A DNA stretch of 64,000 nt from Candidatus Nanopelagicus limnes (GTDB lineage: Bacteria; Actinomycetota; Actinomycetes; Nanopelagicales; Nanopelagicaceae). This document shows, one piece after another, positions 38,345 through 42,320 of this stretch; positions within the stretch are counted from its first letter, which is position 1, and every line of letters starts with the position of its first letter. Made by a program: the position numbers and the translations under genes. The stretch spans positions 992,001-1,056,000 of the forward strand of contig NZ_CP016768.2 of assembly GCF_002287885.2 (NCBI RefSeq), given 5' to 3'. Below the pieces are notes generated by a model that saw only the letters and a list, made by a program, of their open reading frames with translations, did not search any database and had not been told where the DNA came from.

Positions 38345-39661
38345 ATGGCGTTAAAGCTTTCAGTAATTGGCACTGGGTATTTAGGTGCAACGCATGCTGC
38401 CTGCATGGCCAGCTTGGGCTTTGATGTTATCGGTTTTGACACTGAAGCTAGCAAAATAGAATTGTTAAGCAAAGGTAAAGTTCCATTTTATGAACCTGGC
38501 TTAGAAGAATTGCTATCTGAGCAGATTAAATCAGGTCGTTTAACATTTACAAATAATGTTGCAGATCTGGCAGACGCCGATGTTCATTTCATTTGCGTAG
38601 GAACACCTCAGATTAAAAATGGTAATGCCGCTGATTTAACCTATGTAAATTCAGCGTTAGAGGCGATTGCAAAGCTTGTAAAGCCTGGCGGCTTAGTAGT
38701 TGGTAAATCAACAGTTCCAGTTGGTACTGCAACAAAGTTAAGAAACAGATTATTAGAGCTAAATCCGAAGGCAGATCTTGCTTGGAATCCTGAATTCTTG
38801 CGCGAAGGATTTGCCGTTGAAGACACCTTAAGACCGAATCGATTGGTTGTTGGTGTTGTAAATGACAGTGCGGAGCAGATCTTAAAGGAAGTTTATGCAA
38901 CTAATCTAAAGGATAAAACTCCATGGGTTAGAGCTGATCTACCAACTGCAGAATTAGTAAAGGTTGCTGCTAATTCTTTCTTAGCAACAAAGATTTCCTT
39001 TATTAACGCTATGGCTGAAATCTGTGAAGCTGCTGGAGGTGATGTCACGGTGCTTGCAAAAGCTATTGGCTATGACCCAAGAATTGGAAGTCGATTCTTA
39101 CAAGCTGGAATTGGCTTTGGTGGCGGCTGTCTACCAAAAGATATTCGTGCCTTTATGGCAAGAGCTGAAGAACTTGGCGCCAGCCAAGCAGTTGAGTTCC
39201 TGAAAGAAATTGATGCAATCAATTTACGTGCCCGTCAACGAGTTATTGAATTAGTTCGTAAAGATTTATCAGATGACCTGCAAGGTAAGAAGGTTGCAAT
39301 TCTTGGTGCGGCATTTAAGCCTGATAGTGATGATGTTCGCGACTCCCCAGCACTAGATATCGCAGCACAGATTCAAGCAGCCGGAGCAGTTGTTACCGTC
39401 CATGACCCTAAAGCTATTGCTAATGCTCAAAAGCGCTTTCCTGCCCTGAATTTTGCAGATGATGTGAATGCCACACTTAAAGATGCAGAAATTGTCCTAC
39501 ACCTGACAGAGTGGAAGATTTATCAAGAGATTGACCCAGTCAAAGTTAAATCAATTGTTAAAAATCCAATTGTTATTGATGGTAGGAATGCATTAGATCG
39601 TCATCTGTGGCAATCTGCTGGCTGGAAATTTAGAGCACTCGGCCGCAGCAATAATGAATGA
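38345..39661 (+). CDS. ugd: UDP-glucose 6-dehydrogenase
   Basis: 438 residues. NAD-binding GTGYLGATHA (8-17), the STVPVGT motif, NPEFLREGFAVED, and catalytic cysteine in GFGGGCLPKD, with the UDP-binding C-terminal domain (AFKPDSDDVRDSP). Oxidises UDP-glucose to UDP-glucuronate for surface polysaccharides. Overlaps the CoA-binding gene by eight bases. Confidence 0.94.
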   Translation: MALKLSVIGTGYLGATHAACMASLGFDVIGFDTEASKIELLSKGKVPFYEPGLEELLSEQIKSGRLTFTNNVADLADADVHFICVGTPQIKNGNAADLTYVNSALEAIAKLVKPGGLVVGKSTVPVGTATKLRNRLLELNPKADLAWNPEFLREGFAVEDTLRPNRLVVGVVNDSAEQILKEVYATNLKDKTPWVRADLPTAELVKVAANSFLATKISFINAMAEICEAAGGDVTVLAKAIGYDPRIGSRFLQAGIGFGGGCLPKDIRAFMARAEELGASQAVEFLKEIDAINLRARQRVIELVRKDLSDDLQGKKVAILGAAFKPDSDDVRDSPALDIAAQIQAAGAVVTVHDPKAIANAQKRFPALNFADDVNATLKDAEIVLHLTEWKIYQEIDPVKVKSIVKNPIVIDGRNALDRHLWQSAGWKFRALGRSNNE

Positions 39662-40046
39662 TTCAATAGATAAATTATTAGCCTTAAAAACTTGGGCTGT
39701 TGTTGGTTTAAGCAATAATTCTGAACGTGCCGCTTTCGGAGTTGCAAAGCTGTTAATTGAAAAAGGGCACCAAGTAATTCCTGTTCATCCAAAGGCAGAA
39801 ACTGTTCATGGTCAAAAAGGATATGAGAAGTTATCAGATGTTCCTTTTCCAATTGATGTTGTAGATATATTCGTTAACTCTGACTTAGCAGGTGAAGTTG
39901 TAGATAGTGCAATCGCAATAAATGCAAAGGGAGTTTGGCTGCAACTTGATGTAATTGATCAGAGTGCTGTTGAAAGAGCAGAAAATGCTGGTCTGATCGC
40001 AGTTATGAATCGATGCCCTGCTATCGAATATAGAAAACGACCTTAG
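39654..40046 (+). CDS. CoA-binding domain protein
   Basis: 130 residues, a stand-alone Rossmann-like CoA-binding domain (YccU type): WAVVGLSNNSERAAFGVAKLL, IPVHPKAETVHG and MNRCPAIEYRK. Function unknown; related proteins bind CoA or act as regulators. Stop abuts that of the convergent PurK-like gene. Confidence 0.88.
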   Translation: MNDSIDKLLALKTWAVVGLSNNSERAAFGVAKLLIEKGHQVIPVHPKAETVHGQKGYEKLSDVPFPIDVVDIFVNSDLAGEVVDSAIAINAKGVWLQLDVIDQSAVERAENAGLIAVMNRCPAIEYRKRP

Positions 40047-40868
40047 TTATTCAACAATTTTTCCACTGTAATACTGCTGTGCATGAATTATCTCTGTAAG
40101 TAACTCCTCAAGATCATCACCAGCAACTGCTACCTGTTTGATCGATTGATCAAACTTAAGCCTTGGATTTCTCGCCATTAAATGCAAATATGGCCGGTAG
40201 TCATCGCTGTTTTGATCAGTTTCCAATGCTCCTGTAACTACATATTTTGAAAGCAATTCAGTGCTGCCTAAAGGTAAATCAAGAACTGCGCGCAAGTTTT
40301 GTTCATAAAAATTAGTTACAGAGCCAATTTGAGTCCAGTAATTCGTAGTAGGTGTCATCCAGTTGATTCCAATTAATTTTTTGTATTCGACTGCGTCAAC
40401 TATCAATTCAAATCCACCAACTAAACCCACCTCTGCAGCAAGTTTTAAAACTGAAATTTGTATCTCCTGCGCTATCTCATCACTAATTCCAGGAAGAGGG
40501 GTAATGCATAATTCATTTGATAACAAGGTAATTGGCCAGCTAGCAGCTTGTGCATGTGCTGATCTAGCCACTAACACCGACAACCGCTCACCCTCACCTG
40601 AATGGGAGGTTATCTTGGCTAACTCTTCAATTGTTTTGGATGTAGGATAAATTCGAATTCCAGATTTTTCTGCAGTTTTAATTGCTGAAGTTGAGATGAT
40701 TGCCGGATCGACATAAAGTAAATCGCACTCTTTAGCGAATTCAATTAAATCAGAACCTGACATTTCCTTGCTCAAAGTTTTAATCCCAATGCCCAATTTC
40801 ACTGCTTGCACTTGGTAGGCATTCTGACTCTGCTCTTGCGCAATAAGTCCAATAAATGGCGGCTTCAT
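40047..40868 (-). CDS. Degenerate PurK-like protein lacking the ATP-grasp core
   Basis: 273 residues versus about 360-390 for PurK (N5-CAIR synthetase). Residues 50-85 match the part of PurK before the ATP-binding domain (YPTSKTIEELAK). The ~90-residue ATP-binding segment is missing, and homology resumes at LSVLVARSAHAQAASWP (96-112), LPGISDE, and NFYEQNLRAVLDLPLGS (186-202). The substrate/metal motif usually NExAPRPHNSGHW reads NWMTPTTNYW, losing the glutamate, arginine and histidines. The frame is intact, so it is probably expressed but not catalytic. purE is absent; a maf neighbour is shared with Mycobacterium. Confidence 0.75.
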   Translation of the reverse strand: MKPPFIGLIAQEQSQNAYQVQAVKLGIGIKTLSKEMSGSDLIEFAKECDLLYVDPAIISTSAIKTAEKSGIRIYPTSKTIEELAKITSHSGEGERLSVLVARSAHAQAASWPITLLSNELCITPLPGISDEIAQEIQISVLKLAAEVGLVGGFELIVDAVEYKKLIGINWMTPTTNYWTQIGSVTNFYEQNLRAVLDLPLGSTELLSKYVVTGALETDQNSDDYRPYLHLMARNPRLKFDQSIKQVAVAGDDLEELLTEIIHAQQYYSGKIVE

Positions 40869-40872
40869 GTAA

Positions 40873-40880
40873 TAAGGTTA
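40873..40880. promoter_or_regulatory. Overlapping opposed -10 elements between the PurK-like gene and maf
   Basis: Plus strand TAAGGT (40873-40878) lies ten bases before the maf ATG; minus strand TAACCT (40880-40875) lies six bases before the PurK-like ATG. The two hexamers overlap by four bases in a 20-bp gap, so the two promoters should exclude one another. Confidence 0.45.
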
Positions 40881-40888
40881 CCTGCATA

Positions 40889-41488
40889 ATGGTTCAGATA
40901 ATTCTTGCCTCAGCATCACCATCTCGGCTTCGCCTTTTAGAAAGCGCTGGGATCTCTCCTAAGGTTTTAGTTAGTGGGGTTAACGAAGAGGCCTCTGAAC
41001 TTGATTCACTTACTCCCTCAGAACTAGTTATAGCTTTAGCGATTCTAAAAGCACACACCGTTAAAGAGCTAGCTCCTGCCGATTCTTTAATTATTGGATG
41101 TGATTCAACATTTGAGTTTGAAGGAAAATCACTTGGCAAACCAGGGAGCAAAGAAAATGCAATTTCTAGATGCAAGCAATTAAGTGGTAAATCTGGATAT
41201 CTTCACACCGGGCATTGCGTGATCGATTTAAAAAATGGCATAGAGTTAAGTGAAAGATCAACCTCTAAAGTTCAATTTGCTCAAATGACTGATGCTGAGA
41301 TTAGTGATTATGTAGATTCAGGTGAACCATTAAATGTTGCAGGTGGCTTCACATTGGATGGCTTAAGTGCTCCATTTATTACAAATATTGAGGGTGACCC
41401 AAGTGGAATTATTGGCTTATCGCTACCTTTATTAAGAAAAATGGTTATCTCATTAGGGTATAGCTGGCCTGACTTAAAAAATAAGTAA
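40889..41488 (+). CDS. maf: Maf-like nucleoside triphosphate pyrophosphatase
   Basis: 199 residues from ATG at 40889, which begins right at the family motif (MVQIILASASPSRLRLL); an earlier in-frame ATG overlaps the divergent gene. Further motifs: GVNEEA, GCDSTFEFEGKSLGKP (catalytic aspartate and lysine) and the IEGDPSGIIGL end. Hydrolyses modified or canonical pyrimidine NTPs to monophosphates, linked to division arrest. Twenty-two bases upstream of the nucleoside phosphorylase gene. Confidence 0.92.
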   Translation: MVQIILASASPSRLRLLESAGISPKVLVSGVNEEASELDSLTPSELVIALAILKAHTVKELAPADSLIIGCDSTFEFEGKSLGKPGSKENAISRCKQLSGKSGYLHTGHCVIDLKNGIELSERSTSKVQFAQMTDAEISDYVDSGEPLNVAGGFTLDGLSAPFITNIEGDPSGIIGLSLPLLRKMVISLGYSWPDLKNK

Positions 41489-41510: not shown

Positions 41511-42320
41511 ATGAAGAAGTTGTATAAAGACCCTATTGGCACAGCTGAAAAAGCTGCCAAAGCGATTGCAAAGATAACTGGAAAAGCCAAGCATGATGTT
41601 GCACTCGTTATGGGATCAGGTTGGATTTCAGCCGCTGACGCACTTGGCACACCCACTCATGAATTTGCTGTAACAGAATTACCTGGCTTTCCTGCGCCAA
41701 CAGTTGCAGGCCATGGCGGAAAATTGCGTTCTTATAAATTATCAAATGGTTCAAATGCTTTAGTTTTCTTAGGTCGTACCCATTTTTACGAAGGTTTAGG
41801 CATGGAGCCAGTAGCGCATGCGGTTAGAACTGCGGTTAAAGCAGGGTGTAAAAACATTGTGTTAACTAATGCTTGCGGAGGAATTAATACAGATTACAAA
41901 GTTGGACAGCCAGTATTAATCAGAGACCACATCTCACTGACAGCTGCTTCACCATTAATTGGTGCAGATTTTGTTGACCTTACAGATTTATACAGCAAGA
42001 GATTAAGACAGATTGTTAAAGAGGAAGATCCATCTTTAGCTGAAGGTGTCTATGTTCATTGGCGTGGACCATCCTATGAAACACCTGCTGAAATTAAGAT
42101 GATGAGAAGTATGGGAGCGGATTTGGTTGGAATGTCTACTGTTCCAGAAGCAATTGCTGCACACGCACTCGGCGCAGAAATTCTTGCTATTTCTTTGGTG
42201 ACAAATGCTGCCGCTGGAGTAACTGGTGAAAAACTAAATCATGCTGAAGTCATAGCCGCTGGTAAAGCTGCTGCTGATCGGATGGGAAATCTACTAGCGA
42301 AGGTTTTGCCTAAGTTGTGA
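41511..42320 (+). CDS. punA: Purine nucleoside phosphorylase (trimeric, PunA type)
   Basis: 269 residues, the length of trimeric PNPs. Phosphate-binding GSGW, RTHFYEG, NACGGIN, the ESMxxx equivalent MSTVPEAIAA, and SLVTNAAAG purine loop (Asn of the base site). Splits inosine/guanosine and deoxy forms to base plus (deoxy)ribose-1-P. First gene of the sugar-phosphate catabolic operon; its stop overlaps the next start as GTGA. Confidence 0.95.
   Translation: MKKLYKDPIGTAEKAAKAIAKITGKAKHDVALVMGSGWISAADALGTPTHEFAVTELPGFPAPTVAGHGGKLRSYKLSNGSNALVFLGRTHFYEGLGMEPVAHAVRTAVKAGCKNIVLTNACGGINTDYKVGQPVLIRDHISLTAASPLIGADFVDLTDLYSKRLRQIVKEEDPSLAEGVYVHWRGPSYETPAEIKMMRSMGADLVGMSTVPEAIAAHALGAEILAISLVTNAAAGVTGEKLNHAEVIAAGKAAADRMGNLLAKVLPKL

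Follow-up and report, generated by a model that had tools for sequence, protein, structure and literature searches.

A PurK homologue without its ATP-grasp core, kept under purifying selection in Nanopelagicaceae

The purK locus

The window, the whole stretch of 64,000 nt that was analysed, comes from a complete genome of 1.24 Mb and carries on its minus strand an ORF for a PurK homologue of 273 aa plus stop codon, with no internal stops (Table 1). The original prediction, an intact gene for a PurK homologue that has lost its ATP-grasp core, was borne out on both counts: the frame is open, and searches with Pfam and NCBIfam profiles find no full-length ATP-grasp domain. No Pfam domain at all is recognised in the ORF, whereas the PurK of Planktophila is matched by the ATP-grasp, preATP-grasp and PurK_C profiles. 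The NCBIfam PurK model NF004680 matches residues ~95–240 only (E 1.2e-21; 76.9 bits against a cut-off of 327), and TIGR01161 (PurK) scores 49.8 bits against a cut-off of 318.

Compared with the full-length PurKs of the family, the protein has lost ~16 residues of the N-terminal domain near position 35 and ~73–90 ATP-grasp residues between residues ~84 and ~95; the large lobe is shorter by 5 residues, and the RPGRKxGH loop is gone. The catalytic/metal/bicarbonate motif NELAxRPHNSGHW reads INWMTPTTNYW (the alignment of residues 154–173 may be off by a few positions, and claims about single sites there are tentative), and the segment SVTNFYEQNLRAVLDLPLG is retained. Both the degraded substrate/metal motif and the well-kept flanks noticed earlier were thus seen again. 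The same deletions, and the same open frame of 273 aa, recur throughout the genus.

Table 1. Features of the core-less purK locus (positions in the window).
Feature	Position	Strand	Basis
CoA_binding_2 protein, convergent, stop codon adjoining that of purK; purE ancestrally lay between the two	39654..40046	+	profile
Core-less PurK (pseudo-PurK), 273 aa + stop	40047..40868	-	profile and alignment
Residues 257-273: C-terminal tail LLTEIIHAQQYYSGxIxE, conserved	40050..40100	-	
Residues 223-241: block DYRPYLHLMARNPxLKFxQ, most conserved stretch, pN/pS 0.01	40146..40202	-	
Residues 183-201: helix TNxxEQxLRAVLDLPLG, kept	40266..40322	-	
Residues 159-182: former active-site hairpin (NELAxRPHNSGHW), degraded	40323..40394	-	
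Residues 95-158: large lobe, RSxHxQ...W kept	40395..40586	-	
Residues 85-94: junction, ~73-90 ATP-grasp residues (GGYDGRG, adenine-contact Lys) missing	40587..40616	-	
Residues 1-84: pre-ATP-grasp remnant, GxGQLARM lost, weakly conserved in the genus	40617..40868	-	
Maf-family protein, divergent; ATG 40889 is probably the true start; birA and accD ancestrally lay between maf and purK	40856..41488	+	
Start-to-start region of divergent purK/maf, 26 bp, GGTAACCTTATTACATG on the minus strand	40866..40891	.	
Purine nucleoside phosphorylase homologue (salvage)	41511..42320	+	sequence resemblance

Throughout the genus the genes stand in the invariant order ugd-coa-purK-maf-pnp-pgm-deoC. In relatives with a full-length enzyme the order is GT-LytR-ugd-(coa)-purE-purK-birA-accD-maf-pnp (birA and accD being named by sequence resemblance). 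Of these genes, purE, birA and accD have disappeared from either side of purK in the window, where only the core-less purK is left. It had been suggested that the short gene may have replaced the real one, but the order GT-LytR-ugd-coa-[purE]-purK-[birA-accD]-maf-pnp identifies this place as the real purK locus. Because of this synteny with the loci of full-length relatives, the core-less gene is the original purK in situ. A replacement gene or a horizontal gain at the locus is ruled out by the same comparison.

The sequence between the purK and maf starts, GGTAACCTTATTACATG, is near-identical across the genus and likely represents overlapping leaderless promoters. As listed, the maf ORF begins inside purK; a start at ATG 40889 gives the usual Maf N-terminus and leaves a divergent intergenic region of 20 bp, also near-identical among genus members.

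Loss of the catalytic machinery

Catalytic positions are numbered after E. coli PurK; E238, R242, H244 and the R310/R313/K314/H317 loop are taken to have their usual PurK functions. An alignment of 19 genus members shows that none retains K120 (adenine), H244 or the R310/R313/K314/H317 loop, whose positions are deleted, and that all have other residues in place of E238 and R242; 18 of them also have another residue in place of Q11 (AIR). GGYDGRG and the positions of K120 and R80 are deleted throughout the genus, and E153 is variable. The functions of Q11, R80, K120 and E153 in the E. coli enzyme are given by PMC3261824. The same catalytic positions are invariant in 48 full-length PurKs of the family (with R/K at R310) and nearly invariant in 13 further actinobacterial full-length PurKs. 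Because the ATP-grasp, AIR, metal and phosphate-loop positions are deleted or replaced, catalysis by the short PurK of the genus would be impossible.

An AlphaFold model of the 273 aa protein has a pLDDT of 91.7 and a pTM of 0.88. The structures closest to it are all PurK, among them T. maritima PurK (3ax6; Z 27.8, rmsd 2.7 over 261 residues). A comparison of the model with PurK had been proposed as a check, and it finds the PurK fold kept outside the lid, so that a well-formed scaffold appears to remain after the lid deletion.

Purine synthesis genes

The pathway was assessed by family searches for PurK, PurE, PurC, PurH and PurF. A true purK and purE had been proposed as search targets, and neither was found in the complete host genome, where the family searches detected no second PurK. 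Two ATP-grasp matches were discarded as candidates, one being a D-Ala-D-Ala ligase-like ORF and the other an ORF of 1083 aa that is probably carbamoyl-phosphate synthase. Neither PurE nor PurC was detected in any of the 25 genus genomes searched. PurH was found in two of the 25, the host not among them, and the only PurF match in the host genome is below the cut-off and has the length expected of GlmS. With PurE, PurC, PurF and PurH absent, the step served by PurK therefore no longer exists.

The two PurH-like ORFs (G004:C87:2281-3135 and G012:C6:3366-4220) are 480 aa long, compared with ~520 aa in relatives, and are retained in these genomes though PurC, PurE and a full PurK are gone. Complete nucleotide synthesis has been reported for acI-A and acI-C strains (PMC5301498), with which the full-length PurK and PurE of Planktophila (L113) agree. 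In a metatranscriptome study, a second purine/pyrimidine permease is reported to be expressed only in acI-B (PMC5574706).

Selection on the short gene

The short form was found in 23 of the 25 genus genomes, at 53–90% identity, and the two without a match are incomplete MAGs. Every copy not cut by a contig end has an open frame of 273 aa. Values of dN/dS in six close pairs were 0.09–0.13, and a codon model of 19 sequences gave an omega of 0.104, close to that of the neighbouring genes pgm, maf and coa. For neighbouring genes in the same pairs dN/dS was 0.02–0.18, the exceptions being a maf pair (0.34, at a dS of 0.04) and a coa pair with zero nonsynonymous changes. In a simulated neutral ORF at 0.1 substitutions per site, a stop arose in 98.7% of runs.

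The gene is under strong purifying selection, and the open frames and an omega of ~0.1 rule out a pseudogene. The comparison of dN/dS across relatives thus gave neither the values near 1 nor the broken frames of a decaying gene, in agreement with the earlier view that a non-catalytic protein is preserved by selection. Median omega was 0.061 for full-length PurKs of the family and 0.126 for core-less ones, so constraint on the latter is about half as strict, yet clear.

Conservation of the C-terminal block

Catalytic PurKs share 103 conserved positions; the genus retains 26 of them, clustered in RS..Q, T185-E189-R193-LPLG201, H229, A232, H262 and G269. Regional conservation was expressed as mean pairwise identity within full-length PurKs of the family, full-length PurKs of other actinobacteria (outgroup), the genus, and other core-less PurKs, in this order. 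For block 223–241 the values were 0.88, 0.51–0.52, 0.92 and 0.80, and for the tail 0.70, 0.47, 0.83 and 0.60. The old active-site hairpin gave 0.77, 0.74, 0.53 and 0.33, and the old active site at residues 164–182 gave 0.87, 0.82, 0.52 and 0.35, the reverse of the pattern in the block. Helix 183–201 (0.92, 0.87, 0.79 and 0.80) is an ordinary feature of all PurKs. When all 19-residue windows were scanned, 223–241 ranked first both for the excess of family over outgroup identity and for conservation in the genus.

The comparison across the four groups shows that conservation of 223–241 tracks the family and not catalysis. A constraint at the DNA level was rejected for the block, as synonymous sites in it vary freely among the close pairs (pS 0.34 against pN 0.004). 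The idea of a new motif unique to the family had to be toned down, since RSPHGQ and a looser C-terminal block occur in other actinobacterial PurKs; what is special in Nanopelagicaceae is the raised conservation.

Recurrence across Nanopelagicaceae

Core-less PurKs with deletions of varied size were found outside the genus too, several of them on single MAG contigs. In g3, a genus with larger genomes, they adjoin purE (L093, L097, L100, L102, G026, G110, G125 and G140), and scattered genomes have a core-less PurK but no purE (L094, L095, L096, L098, L140 and L152). Genera g13, g40 and g8 carry strongly diverged forms, those of g13 and g40 consisting of the C-terminal ~180 residues only, with no N-terminal domain. 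The loci L074, L079, L103 and L111 nest within Nanopelagicaceae, and the 'Bifidobacterium breve' titles of these MAG records are probably wrong.

On a tree of the neighbouring genes ugd/maf/pnp/coa (80 loci), the full-length and core-less states need at least eight changes, of which at least six are forced by strongly supported branches. These changes are undirected under parsimony; repeated loss is the natural reading because all outgroups are full-length. The full-length PurK of L134, inside the g3 clade, may be a regain.

In g3 the core-less PurK lies directly upstream of an intact PurE at L194 (G026:C1:63119-64430), L093, L097, L100, L102 and L195–L197. Searches of G026, G110, G125 and G140 yielded no catalytic PurK, and G026 additionally carries PurC and PurH. 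By analogy with archaea lacking PurK, for which PurE working with CO2 alone has been proposed (PMC3261824), purine synthesis in g3 may run in this way.

Among 22 sampled g40 genomes, 15 have no remnant, including one that is 99% complete; the function of the remnant is therefore dispensable there. About a third of the sampled g40 genomes retain a remnant of 219–236 aa and the others have lost it; this contrast (e.g., G063, G074 and G095 against G139, G144 and G119) should be useful for finding a co-lost partner.

One MAG, G135, carries both forms. A core-less PurK (L192) occupies the ancestral locus, and a full PurK with PurE lies on contig G135:C8 (L193, 5976-7572) at a locus without ugd or maf. 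The catalytic copy is nearest to that of L131, with strong support. It keeps the catalytic motifs and has lost RSPHGQ (RSxHxQ), YRPYLHLM and the HAxDYxSGxIDE tail, and the core-less copy shows the opposite pattern, keeping RSxHxQ, YRPYLHLM and the tail. The tetranucleotide composition of both contigs is closer to g3 genomes than to L131. The second purK-purE pair looks like a re-acquisition from an L131-like lineage, and the two copies together are suggestive of a natural double dissociation of catalysis and block, seen in this one MAG.

Discussion

The reading we favour, and consider reasonably probable, is that the ancestral purK without its lid now encodes a non-catalytic structural partner, a pseudoenzyme whose C-terminal surface binds another macromolecule. 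The host is a streamlined freshwater actinobacterium, probably Ca. Nanopelagicus (acI-B), in which de novo purine synthesis was lost. Deletion or erosion took away the PurK lid and active-site residues, and birA/accD disappeared on the upstream side and purE on the downstream side. What remains of the protein is a scaffold made up of the large lobe of the ATP-grasp domain, the helix TSxxEQxLRAxLDLPLG and a C-terminal domain that carries the block and the tail. A C-terminal binding role may already have been present in the full-length PurK of Nanopelagicaceae. We propose that several lineages dropped catalysis independently and kept the same part because this second function pre-existed; in other lineages, too, purE has gone from several while the PurK remnant stays. 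The evidence leans slightly towards a function of the PurK C-terminus (block DYRPYLHLMARNPxLKFxQ and tail) that predates the loss of purine synthesis, persisted after catalysis had gone in at least six lineages and, in one, was divided between two copies. We infer that this function is binding, most likely of a protein, rather than sensing.

It is unlikely that the short PurK is a ligand sensor, with a pocket for a purine nucleotide or an AICAR-like metabolite that regulates purine salvage or uptake. This is the idea, put forward earlier, of a regulator or ligand-binding relic in purine metabolism. In its favour, the genus depends on imported purines, acI-B is reported to express an additional purine permease (PMC5574706), homologues of purine nucleoside phosphorylase and deoxyribose-phosphate aldolase lie nearby, and in the AlphaFold model the lobe and C-terminal domain are kept around the old substrate cleft. 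However, the protein has no DNA-binding domain, its neighbours are ancestral and form no recruited cluster, and the old active-site stretch is among its less conserved parts. A sensor becomes less likely because the residues known to contact AIR and ATP have been deleted or vary, and because the g13 and g40 forms have no N-terminal domain, so that the ancestral cleft cannot form in them.

Folding or dimerisation might be all that the kept blocks serve, for instance to avoid misfolding toxicity or to stabilise PurE. Helix 183–201 is conserved in all PurKs, several g3 genomes keep the core-less PurK next to an intact purE, and PurK-PurE binding has been reported in Pectobacterium (PMC13028927). 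This account is nevertheless quite unlikely to suffice: other actinobacterial PurKs fold and function without a conserved block 223–241 (0.51), the catalytic copy of G135 has lost this block, and deletion of the gene would be a simpler escape from misfolding. A PurE helper is out as a general explanation for the window's genus, as PurE is absent there.

A new catalytic activity on the PurK fold would agree with newly fixed residues in the genus (e.g., T217, D218 and, tentatively aligned, E154 and N169), but it is very unlikely, as the best-conserved part is the C-terminal domain, remote from the old active site and conserved already in catalytic relatives, and a core lost independently several times, with the same part retained each time, points to a function that was there beforehand. 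Slow decay of an in-frame relic kept by chance or by low deletion rates is the least credible account and already largely refuted: omega is about twice that of full-length PurKs and g40 has mostly lost the remnant, but omega is far below 1 over a divergence that saturates synonymous sites, complete copies are free of stops and frameshifts, and the gene stayed when birA, accD and purE were deleted around it.

The putative structural partner shares with PurK (N5-CAIR synthetase; TIGR01161; PDB 3ax6, 1b6s) descent, locus, the retained fold and the TSxxExxLRAxxDLPLG helix. It differs in being a short protein without the ATP-grasp lid, the metal ligand, and the AIR and phosphate contacts, in the absence of PurE and PurC, and in scoring far under the curated cut-offs. 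By its homologous fold, its lost catalytic residues and the purifying selection on it, the short PurK fits the description of a pseudoenzyme, with a presumed non-catalytic function. Many pseudoenzymes exist alongside an active paralogue in the same cell; here, by contrast, the sole copy of the gene would have become the pseudoenzyme after its pathway vanished, and repeatedly so in one family.

A moonlighting role independent of purine supply is described in a single report, for PurK of Pectobacterium brasiliense (PMC13028927). That protein is full-length, belongs to another phylum and needs all three domains, so the case shows only that a second role of PurK is plausible. 'Domain atrophy' (PMC4432964) resembles the case of the short PurK in that functional proteins have lost core elements of a domain, but that work treats the ordinary N-terminal domain of S. 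aureus PurK and not a loss of the ATP-grasp core. No description of a core-less PurK, or of its retention in acI bacteria, was found in the open-licence literature.

Annotation pipelines may miss the short PurK, which has no Pfam match, or call it a broken PurK, and such annotation would mislead metabolic models of acI bacteria. The family offers a natural repeated experiment in which one housekeeping enzyme gave up catalysis on several occasions, with the same part retained each time, in hosts that are among the most abundant and most streamlined freshwater bacteria. If the proposal is true, a hidden second function of a textbook enzyme would be mapped to a 19-residue block and a tail, where it is directly testable.
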